From Chthoniobacterales bacterium (lineage in GTDB: Bacteria > Verrucomicrobiota > Verrucomicrobiia > Chthoniobacterales > JACTMZ01), in NCBI GenBank assembly GCA_018402585.1, contig JAGYIO010000008.1, forward strand, positions 20,527 through 84,526: a stretch of DNA of 64,000 bases. The letters run 5' to 3'. The translations under genes and the position numbers were made by a program. The notes below the pieces were generated by a model. It saw only the letters and a program-made list of their open reading frames with translations, had not been told where the DNA came from and did not search any database. Positions 51,030 through 60,684 of the stretch are shown here, one piece after another; position 1 is the first letter of the stretch, and every line of letters begins with the position of its first letter.

Positions 51030-51200
51030 CCGACCAACTCGCGTTACGGCGGACCCGCCAGGCGAGTCGACTTCTGCTTTGGGCAGGGGGCACGGGCGTC
51101 CCGCCCGTCACGATCCGACAACACGGCCGGGACGGCCGTGCCCCCTGGACAAACCGAGCCAAGCCGCGCTTTTATTGCGTCTTCAACGGCATGAAGACGG
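51030..51200. repeat. Diverged copy A of CTTAG-flanked MITE-like family
   Basis: Shares GGGGGCACGGGCGTCCCGCCCGTCACGA..ACGGCCGGGACGGCCGTGCCCCCTGGACAAACCGAGCCAAGCCGCGCTTTTATTGCGTCTTCAA; termini degenerate. Confidence 0.75.
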
Positions 51201-51427
51201 CTTAGCCGTAACCATGCAAAACATTCTGCCATTTCTGGCACGGCAACAGAGTCGCGTCTGGGCGAGAGTTGACTAACTATTTGGTGAGCGAGGTGGCACG
51301 TCGCCAAGGGGGCACGGGCGTCCCGCCCGTCACGACCCGACAACACGGCCGGGACGGCCGTGCCCCCTGGACAAACCGAACCAAGCCGCGCTTTTATTGC
51401 GTCTTCAATTGCATGGTTACGGCTTAG
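51201..51427. mobile_element. MITE-like element copy B (217 bp core 51206-51422, CTTAG on both sides)
   Basis: CTTAG-CCGTAACCATGCAA ... TTGCATGGTTACGG-CTTAG; 14-bp perfect inverted termini; near-identical to copies D and E. Confidence 0.85.
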
Positions 51428-51515: not shown

Positions 51516-51679
51516 CGCTGCGCTGCGATTCACCAAGCCTCGGTTGCGGCTTCGCCTCCAGTTCCACTCACTCAACATTAAACATTCATATTTCAAAATT
51601 TACCCGCCCCCCTTGTCACGCCAGCACGCCCCGCCCTCCAGAAACACAAGCCAGAGCAACGCGAAGGCGAGTCTCCTCA

Positions 51680-51878
51680 AGCGCAACCATGCAAAACATT
51701 CCGCCATTTCCGGCACTGCCCCAAAGGTGCGCCTGAGCGAAAGTTGACTAACGTATTGGGCGACCGAGTTGGCACGTGGCCAGAGGGGCAAGGGCAGCCT
51801 GCCCGCCGCGCCCCCGGGACAAACCGAGCCAAGCCGCGCTTTCATTGCCTCTCCCACTGCATGGATCCGGGGGCTAAG
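51680..51878. repeat. Diverged copy C of CTTAG-flanked MITE-like family
   Basis: GCAACCATGCAAAACATTCCGCCATTTCCGGCACTGCC ... CCCCCGGGACAAACCGAGCCAAGCCGCGCTTTCATTGCCTCTCCCACTGCATGG. Confidence 0.7.
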
Positions 51879-54748: not shown

Positions 54749-55768
54749 ATGAAATTCTCCGTCGTCATCCCCTGCCACAACGAAGAAGACTCCATCGGCC
54801 TCTTACTCGACACCCTCGCGCCACTACTCATCGCGCAATTCGGGGAAGACTGGGAAGTTATTCTCGTCGATGACGGCAGCCGCGATGCCACCCGAGATCT
54901 TATCCAGGCAGCCAGCGACCTCGACTCCCGCATCAAAGGCGTTTTCCTGAGTAGAGCCTTCGGTCACCAGCCCGCCATATTTGCCGGCCTCGGCTATGCC
55001 ACCGGCGCCCACGTCGGAGTGATCGATGTCGACCTGCAGGATCCTCCCTCCGTCTTGCTCCAGTGCCTCGAGAAAGCCACCGCCGAGAAATTGGACGTCG
55101 TTTATGCCGTCCGCAAAAATCGCCAATCCAGCCACAGCTTGAAGCTCTGCTATTGGTTCTTTTACCGCCTCATGGGCCTCCTCTCGTCCCACTCTTGGCC
55201 GCTCGATGCCGGCGACTTCTCCGTCATGTCCCACCGCGCCGTCTCGCTTCTCCTCGCGCTGCCCGAGCGCGTCCGTGTTCTGCGCGGCTTGCGGTCCTGG
55301 ATTGGTCTCCGCCACGGATACGTCGAATACGATCGCCCCGAACGCGCCCGCGGCGAATCAAAATACGGCTTTTTGAAACTCCTGGCCCTCGCCTTGAATT
55401 CCCTCTTCAGCTTCAGCCACATCCCCTTGCGCCTGGCCAGCTTGATCGGACTGCTCATGACCGGCCTTTCGCTCCTCGCCGCCCTCCTCCTCCTCGCCAA
55501 CCGCCTCATCCCCCAGTTTACCTTCTTCGGCTACTACATCGGAGCCAACCCCGGAACGGCCACCATCGCCCTGCTCCTCCTCTTCCTCGGCAGCCTGCTC
55601 TTTCTCTGTCTCGGCATCATCGGCGAGTATCTGCGCATCTTAGTCGACGAAACCAAACGCCGCCCCGTCGCCATTGTCGAGGCCCGGGCCGGCTTGCCCA
55701 CCCGCGCCGCACCCCACGACCTCATCCTCGAAGCCGTCCCCCCCGGCGCAGGTTCAGGACATAGGTAA
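54749..55768 (+). CDS. Glycosyltransferase family 2 with C-terminal TM helices; 3' end fused to IS terminus
   Basis: MKFSVVIPCHNEEDSIGLLLDTL, VILVDDGSRDATRDLI, GVIDVDLQDPPSVLLQCL; stop TAA (55766-55768) lies within the IS left terminal repeat. Confidence 0.88.
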   Translation: MKFSVVIPCHNEEDSIGLLLDTLAPLLIAQFGEDWEVILVDDGSRDATRDLIQAASDLDSRIKGVFLSRAFGHQPAIFAGLGYATGAHVGVIDVDLQDPPSVLLQCLEKATAEKLDVVYAVRKNRQSSHSLKLCYWFFYRLMGLLSSHSWPLDAGDFSVMSHRAVSLLLALPERVRVLRGLRSWIGLRHGYVEYDRPERARGESKYGFLKLLALALNSLFSFSHIPLRLASLIGLLMTGLSLLAALLLLANRLIPQFTFFGYYIGANPGTATIALLLLFLGSLLFLCLGIIGEYLRILVDETKRRPVAIVEARAGLPTRAAPHDLILEAVPPGAGSGHR

Positions 55769-55770
55769 CA

Positions 55771-55997
55771 CTTAGCCGTAACCATGCAAAACATTCTGCC
55801 GTTTCTGGCACGGCAACAGAGTCGCGTCTGGGCGAGAGTTGACTAACTATTTGGTGAGCGAGGTGGCACGTCGCTAAGGGGGCACGGGCGTCCCGCCCGT
55901 CACGACCCGACAACACGGCCGGGACGGCCGTGCCCCCTGGACAAACCGAACCAAGCCGCGCTTTTATTGCGTCTTCAATTGCATGGTTACGGCTTAG
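55771..55997. mobile_element. MITE-like element copy D (core 55776-55992) nested between IS left end and transposase
   Basis: CTTAG-CCGTAACCATGCAA...TTGCATGGTTACGG-CTTAG; 217 bp; about two differences from copy B by eye. Confidence 0.85.
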
Positions 55998-56022
55998 GGC
56001 GCTCTGGCAGAGTGAGCGGTCT

Positions 56023-57378
56023 ATGCCGTGGCAAGAGATTAAACCTACGGAAAAGAGACCGGAATTTGCGTTCCGAGCGCAGCGTTGCGAGAACTTCCGA
56101 GCCCTGTGCCGGGAGTATGGGATCAGCCCGCGGGTGAGCTACAAATGGCCGAAGCGACTGCTGGAGGAAGGGAGGTGGCAGTAAGCCGCGAAGAGCCGGC
56201 GGCCGCAGAAGAGCCCCCAGCAACTCGGGGAAGTTGAGGTCTGCCGATTGGTGCAACTGCGCCAACGGCCTCCGTCCTGGAGTGCGCGCAAGCTGCAAGA
56301 CATCTACCAGCGGGCCTACGGGAAGGGGCCAAGCGAGAGCACCATCAAGCGGATCTTGGAGCGCTGTGGGTTGGTCAAAAAGCGGCGCAAGCGCCGGGCC
56401 AGCCTCGGTGGACAACTCGGTGGTCAGCAGGTGGCCGCGGCCTGCCACGACATCTGGACGGTGGACTTCAAGGGCTGGTGGCACGATGCCGAAGGTCGCT
56501 GCGAGCCGTTGACGGTGCGAGACGAATGCAGCCGCTACGTGCTCGAAGCCAGAGCCCTGGCCGACGCCAAGACCGAAAGCGTTCAAGCCAGCTTCAAGCG
56601 GCTCTTTGAGTTGCACGGATTGCCTCTGGCCATCGGCAGCGACAACGGGTCGCCCTTCGCCAACAGCGCCAGTCCCTTGGGGCTTTCCCGGCTCTCGGCT
56701 TGGTGGGTCTCCCTGGGCATCAACCTGCTGCGCAGTCGTCCGGGCCGACCCGGCGACAACAGCCATCACGAGCGCCTGCATCGCGACCTCTGCGCCGAAG
56801 TCCAGGGCCTCGATTACACCCAGAGGCAAGCCGCCCTCGACCATTGGCCTAAAGAGTTCAATGCAGAGCGGCCCCACGAGGCGTTGGGCATGAAGCGGCC
56901 AGCCGAAGTCTACACCACCAGCGTGCGCCGCTGGGAGGGCAGACCCGCGCAAATCGACTACGAAGGGCTCATGACCCGACGCGTACAGAAACGTGGCACC
57001 ATTCGCTTCGAGGACCAGATTTACTTCATCTCCACCGCCCTGGCCGGCTGGGACGTGGGCCTCAAACTGCGGGCCGACGAAACCTGCGAAGTCTACTTTG
57101 CCAAGCTCTTGGTCGGCCATTTGGAGCTGGCCACCGCCAGCTTCCTGCCCGTTGTCCGCGGCCCAAGCCAACCAACGCCATGCCGCCTGACCCCCTCGGC
57201 GCCCGCCGCGCCCTGCGCTCCGGGGACTCGGCCTGCTCGGCTCCGCCTCGCAAGCCAGCGTCCCCTCCGCTTCGGGCGCGGCGGCTGCATTCCTCCACCT
57301 CTCTGCCTGCCATTGAGCAACCACAACCAACACATCAACACCACCAACAAATCACGGCAGGTGTTACCCATGTCTTGA
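56023..57378 (+). pseudogene. IS481-family transposase interrupted by in-frame TAA (56182-56184)
   Basis: N-part MPWQEIKPTEKRPEFAFRAQRCENFRALCREYGISPRVSYKWPKRLLEEGRWQ*, same-frame continuation AAKSRRPQKSPQQLGEVEVCRLVQLRQRPPSWSARKL... with DDE core WTVDFKGWW, SDNGSPF, HERLHRDL. C-terminus of ORF 56248..57378 probably over-extended. Confidence 0.82.
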
Positions 57379-57526
57379 ACCTAAAGTGTTACCTATGTCC
57401 TGACCGCGCCCTCCGGCCGCCTCATTCATCATTCTTCATTCTGCATTCATCATTCATTATTTCCCCAGCCCCCTCCGGCCGCTCCGCCCTCCTCTTCGTC
57501 TTTTAATTCCCCAAACCCCCTTGACT

Positions 57527-60456: not shown

Positions 60457-60684
60457 CTTAGCCGTAACCATGCAAAACATTCTGCCATTTCTGGCACGGC
60501 AACAGAGTCGCGTCTGGGCGAAGAGTTGACTAACTATTTGGTGAGCGAGGTGGCACGTCGCCAAGGGGGCACGGGCGTCCCGCCCGTCACGACCCGACAA
60601 CACGGCCGGGACGGCCGTGCCCCCTGGACAAACCGAACCAAGCCGCGCTTTTATTGCGTCTTCAATTGCATGGTTACGGCTTAG
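60457..60684. mobile_element. MITE-like element copy E (218 bp core 60462-60679, CTTAG on both sides)
   Basis: Same 14-bp termini as copies B and D; one extra base in the interior (GGGCGAAGAGTTGAC vs GGGCGAGAGTTGAC). Confidence 0.85.

Follow-up and report, generated by a model that had tools for sequence, protein, structure and literature searches.

The repeats described here form a family of miniature inverted-repeat transposable elements (MITEs) with a 5-bp CTNAG duplication, a reading that sequence comparison supports very well, and we put at roughly 87% the probability that they are moved in trans by an IS1380-family transposase that recognizes ends of the CCGTAAC-ATGCA type and inserts at CTNAG with duplication of 5 bp. 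The kind of element, a MITE with a standard mechanism, is already known. The window, i.e. the whole 64-kb stretch of DNA that was analysed (G000:C34:20527-84526), belongs to a 2.46-Mb genome in 35 contigs, whose assembly is about 90% complete.

The MITE family in the window and the genome

An initial annotation of the window had reported three full copies with cores of 217, 217 and 218 bp, 14-bp inverted termini and CTTAG at the outer edges, all of which was confirmed to the base (Table 1). The inverted ends (CCGTAACCATGCAA/TTGCATGGTTACGG) are perfect in all three copies, whose flanks are mutually unrelated, with similarity stopping at CTTAG. Three is indeed the number of full copies in the window, to which a truncated and an old degenerate copy have to be added. 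No transposase is encoded within the MITE, the ORFs that cross it being mechanical open frames only, and its description as a MITE-like element devoid of transposase was upheld.

Table 1. Coordinates of the elements discussed; positions are those of the window unless a contig is named.
Feature	Position	Strand	Remarks
Truncated MITE copy, right-hand part	51078..51205	+	head-to-tail with copy 1, common CTTAG at 51201-51205
CTTAG left of MITE copy 1	51201..51205	.	target-site copy common to the truncated left neighbour
MITE copy 1	51206..51422	+	217 bp, termini CCGTAACCATGCAA...TTGCATGGTTACGG
Internal G+C-rich imperfect palindrome, REP-like	51308..51367	+	strong hairpin; also in copies 2 and 3
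CTTAG right of MITE copy 1	51423..51427	.	target-site duplication
Old degenerate MITE copy	about 51672-51876	+	about 80-85% similar where aligned
IS481-like element hosting copy 2	55754..57403	+	integrase-like ORF at 56248-57378
MITE copy 2 with CTTAG edges	55771..55997	+	core 55776-55992 (217 bp), 17 bp inside the left end of the IS481-like element
MITE copy 3 with CTTAG edges	60457..60684	+	core 60462-60679, 218 bp
Type B copies	C1:464940-465130, C12:26017-26207, C23:20441-20631, C23:334468-334658, C30:39331-39521, C30:72918-73108, C31:6028-6218		

The whole element is predicted to fold strongly (-103 kcal/mol, z = -5.6), its central G+C-rich palindrome giving a strong hairpin and the inverted ends themselves contributing part of the fold strength. 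Partial matches to the REP-like palindrome alone (GGGCGTCCCGCCCGT...ACGGCCGGGACGGCC, window 51307-51370) occur in several genomes of the order.

A BLAST search of the genome, as the initial annotation had proposed, recovered 51 full and 2 partial copies. Counted with both pentamers, the copies mostly measure 227 bp, variants having 223-226, 228, 236-237 and 256 bp, and their identity to the consensus has a median of 96.5% and reaches at least 95% in 38 copies; together with the unrelated flanks, this bears out the recent mobility claimed earlier. The pattern CTNAG+CCGTAACNATGCA, with one mismatch allowed, matches 123 times in this genome versus 0 for a reversed-pattern control, and only 0-4 times per genome elsewhere in the genus. 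The MITE expansion is therefore species-specific among the genus genomes compared, and close relatives contain partial MITE matches only. Spread by segmental duplication or recombination instead of transposition would account for two pairs of copies with common flanks, C12:16828/27197 and C30:195701/196320, which are duplications, but the other copies have unrelated flanks and at one locus the empty site is exact (see below), so that for the family as a whole this explanation is contradicted and has a negligible probability.

CTNAG as target and duplication

The pentamer at the copy edges reads CTNAG, N being one of T, A and C except for a G at a single edge. The two sides carry an identical N in 19 of 21 clean single copies, against a mean of 8.2 after shuffling (p ~5e-6), the 21 having been chosen by hand as copies with CTNAG on both sides, no neighbouring element and only one representative per duplicated pair. 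Among the 19, N is T in 10, A in 7 and C in 2 and is not fixed relative to the orientation of the element, as one is led to expect of a near-palindromic target. A few copies have non-matching pentamers, namely CTAAG/CTCAG, CTGAG/CTTAG and TTAAG/CTAAG. Comparison of occupied and empty alleles, likewise called for by the initial annotation, yielded an exact empty site for the copy at C12:470323: in the congener G006 the locus reads ...AAGGCGCCTAAGATGGTCG... and contains CTAAG once, whereas the present genome has CTAAG-element-CTAAG; up to the pentamer, the flanks are 89% and 97% identical. The same locus is empty in three further congeners, with CTAAA or CTAAC as the pentamer. A second empty site is provided by IS481 paralogues, one of which reads ACCTAAGTG and the other ACCTAAG-element-CTAAGTG; for an array on C30, the empty-site reading is inexact at the junction.

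The matched N and the empty sites together show CTNAG to be both the palindromic site that the element prefers and the 5 bp of target that are duplicated on insertion. Among the three possibilities initially considered for CTTAG, those of a duplication and of a favoured target are thus retained, the latter in the wider form CTNAG, whereas a fixed CTTAG belonging to the element is ruled out. Flanks lacking CTTAG, which had been named as an observation against a mobile family, do exist, CTTAG not being universal among the copies, but the CTAAG and CTCAG found in its place are matched on both sides; similarity extending past CTTAG, the other such observation, is limited to the two duplicated pairs.

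The target duplication with its empty site and the terminal inverted repeats are also what sets the family apart from REP/REPIN-type repeats moved by a RAYT (Y1 transposase). Although the central REP-like palindrome matches dispersed repeats in relatives, it is an internal part and not the mobile unit, and the REPIN reading, contradicted by the CTNAG duplication, can be given next to no weight.

Copy 2 lies within an IS481-like element. The ends of these IS481-like elements contain CACTTAG, or CTAAGTG when read in the opposite orientation, and the left end of the one in the window appears to have carried the CTTAG that copy 2 entered. A paralogue on another contig (C23:306129-307618, L056) bears another MITE copy close to its right end; two IS481 paralogues have each been struck by a MITE copy at this built-in CTNAG. 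As a mobilizer, the IS481-like element was rejected: its termini differ from those of the MITE, as had correctly been noted, and it is a host only.

Candidate transposases

The initial annotation had left the mobilizing enzyme unnamed; the comparisons below point to an IS1380-family transposase as the most likely one. A DDE_Tnp_1 (PF01609) profile search of this genome returned three genes, two of them copies of an IS4 gene and the third an IS1380 gene. The latter lies in a 1537-bp element (C32:114565-116101, L129) with CTAAG on both sides, and its product scores 79.6 bits with PF13701, above the cut-off, and 141 bits with NF033539, below the 180-bit cut-off, the frame being truncated. The right end of the element (CCGTATCCATGCAAAAC) matches the left end of the MITE (CCGTAACCATGCAAAAC) at 16 of 17 bases; its left end (CCGTAAAAATTCAG) is asymmetric, and there CCGTAAAAATTCAGAATTGAAG resembles the MITE right end CCGTAACCATGCAATTGAAG with partial similarity only. 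Relative to an intact 481-aa copy in G084 (G084:C2:1-1520, L182), with which it shares 99.8% identity, the gene has a frameshift that falls between residues 353 and 354; in G084, the contig stops a few bases short of the right end of the element. The identity of more than 99% between the G084 and C32 genes spans genomes placed in different families, which suggests recent horizontal transfer or a mis-binned contig.

Two further IS1380 elements of the order have ends of the form CCGTAAC(G/A)ATGCAG, of the same class as the MITE terminus CCGTAACCATGCAA. The relative in G127 is 1509 bp long, has ends CCGTAACGATGCAGTTGAAG...CTGCATCGTTACGG bordered by CTAAG on the left and CTGAA on the right, and shows 50-57% identity in the two main segments; the right end of one MITE copy (C12:100056) is the same CCGTAACGATGCAGTTGAA as the end of the G127 element. 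In G125, a multi-copy element shows CTNAG next to CCGTAACAATGCAGTTGG at 7/7 contig-edge junctions, N being T, A, A, C, T, T and G (single-sided), and the longest junctions extend into IS1380 transposase sequence, that of the N-terminus at one end of the element and that of the C-terminus at its opposite end, with 52% identity over 58 aa for the C-terminus. More distant IS1380 relatives have ends starting with CC and 5-bp duplications of TTGAA, TTTAA and TTCAT, and a scan for ends and duplications in two Aliarcobacter IS1380 elements gave one possible duplication, ATAAA. Identity between the transposase of the present group and annotated IS1380 transposases is 33%. For IS1247, a member of the IS1380 family, a DR of 5 bp and an IR of 16/13 are recorded (PMC3281130 Table 2).

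We infer from these shared ends and targets that an IS1380 transposase acts on the MITE, and does so in trans, and regard the assignment to IS1380 as strong. The DDE transposase would recognize the CCGTAAC-ATGCA type ends of the MITE and insert it at the palindromic pentamer CTNAG, leaving the 5-bp duplication. The full-length transposon with MITE termini that the initial annotation had proposed to look for was found in part, as IS1380 elements with related ends; an intact transposase with exact CCGTAACCATGCAA ends was not found in this ~90% complete assembly, nor did the PF01609 search of it reveal an intact IS1380 transposase, the sole IS1380 copy being the frameshifted one; an element can, however, be a MITE irrespective of whether its own genome encodes such an enzyme. 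Among the IS1380 elements found, none has an interior from which that of the MITE could stem by internal deletion; the ends alone are common.

A transposase of another family, for instance an IS5-like one making a 3-bp TNA duplication within CTNAG, seems unlikely. At perfect sites such a duplication, read as C-TNA-GCCG...CGGC-TNA-G, would be indistinguishable from a 5-bp CTNAG duplication, the single TTAAG/CTAAG copy fits it without any mutation, and the assembly is incomplete. Yet three IS1380 elements of the order share with the MITE its class of ends and its target, and the PF01609 search of this genome brought up, for that profile, IS4 gene copies and the IS1380 gene only.

The IS4-type gene raises the alternative, in our view highly improbable, that the parent is an IS4-family element at C30:37836-39325 (L121) and the MITE its deletion derivative. 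This ~1.49-kb element between CTAAG sites has full MITE ends around the gene, comprising ~120 bp of the left and 110 bp of the right end, and the gene is bordered by a 16-bp direct repeat, GTCCCGCCCGTCACGA, so that a simple deletion would yield the MITE. Against this, 1221 of the 1222 bp of the gene stretch recur at C1:376996 (L127) with entirely different flanks, the gene is frame-broken in both copies, and its relatives across bacteria and archaea follow other rules: many have ends of the CATAAGCGCTAACTTA type, several show apparent duplications of ~10-12 bp in REP-like palindromes, and in none of the scanned IS4-gene relatives were CCGTAAC ends at CTNAG seen. Since the relatives carry CATAAGCG... 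ends and longer duplications, derivation of the MITE from IS4 was rejected. The presence of the gene elsewhere with other flanks, and the relatives' own ends, favour nesting, and the most plausible account of the C30 element is insertion of an IS4 relative into the palindrome of a MITE.

Tandem arrays and comparison with known systems

At ten places in the genome, two to four copies of the main MITE (type A) are joined in arrays by a single CTNAG, these arrays including one truncated type A copy and one copy carrying the IS4 gene. All 13 of the 13 A-A junctions are head-to-tail. Unit types vary within arrays, e.g. 226 beside 217 bp, so the arrays are not simple local tandem duplications. Because each insertion leaves CTNAG on both edges, new elements could land beside existing ones, which would generate tandem arrays with one common CTNAG. 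In four arrays (C23:40250, C23:355085, C32:104186 and C35:12032) the outer pentamers agree and at least one inner pentamer differs; this pattern is compatible with transposition of a whole array, or with gene conversion in which an array takes the place of a single copy, and the data do not separate the two. It is a possible but doubtful proposition that the CTNAG-specific IS1380 group of the order moves both single MITEs and head-to-tail arrays as units. ISPme1 and ISEcp1, of the IS1380 family, are described as mobilizing adjacent DNA via terminal misrecognition (PMC9330008), which provides a precedent of sorts for the use of outer ends. Possibly, A-A neighbours are exclusively direct because long inverted repeats form unstable palindromes and are lost.

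Besides type A there is a type B element, ~191 bp long and CTNAG-flanked, with ends CCGTGTCCATTCAATTGAACCACG...CCGGAACGAGGCAGAACC, which is often joined to type A via a common CTNAG, in both relative orientations (2 versus 4 junctions). G087, which belongs to a different family of the order, contains an independent group of ~191-bp CTNAG-flanked elements with ends CCGGAACGATGCA, and N matched in the four that were read at both ends (L256, L257, L259 and L260).

In the literature searched, no earlier account came up of CTNAG in connection with IS4, of MITEs linked to IS1380 or of tandem MITEs bordered by CTTAG; the IS1380 group with CTNAG specificity appears to be undescribed there, as do its MITEs and the arrays sharing a target. 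What was an anonymous repeat has become a defined system made up of a MITE, the rule for its target and a candidate transposase amenable to direct testing. In the arrays, nested insertions have left a natural record; the invariably direct orientation of same-type neighbours is a testable pattern. For piggyBac, with its well-known specificity for TTAA, an IS1380 group that targets a specific 5-bp sequence is also a useful point of comparison, and if an IS1380 group does move the arrays, the strict palindromic target would be a prokaryotic parallel to that specificity.

With the IS1380 insertion sequences IS1247, ISPme1 and ISEcp1, the system shares transposase homology, ends starting with CC and a 5-bp duplication (for IS1247, PMC3281130), but here the duplication is the specific palindrome CTNAG, whereas distant IS1380 relatives duplicate other pentamers. 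Like other bacterial MITEs (Correia/NEMIS, RUP, Nezha and TIMEs), the elements are short, gene-less, multi-copy and foldable, with inverted ends and a target duplication; they differ in their link to IS1380, in the CTNAG target and in forming tandem arrays with one common target copy. The central G+C-rich palindrome recalls REP/REPIN sequences, from which the MITE is distinguished by its target duplication and terminal inverted repeats. IS1380 transposases serve as the outgroup for piggyBac trees (PMC10813416). The likeness to the eukaryotic piggyBac elements is by analogy only: both have a sequence-specific palindromic target that is duplicated, TTAA in one case and CTNAG in the other, but the targets differ in sequence and length.
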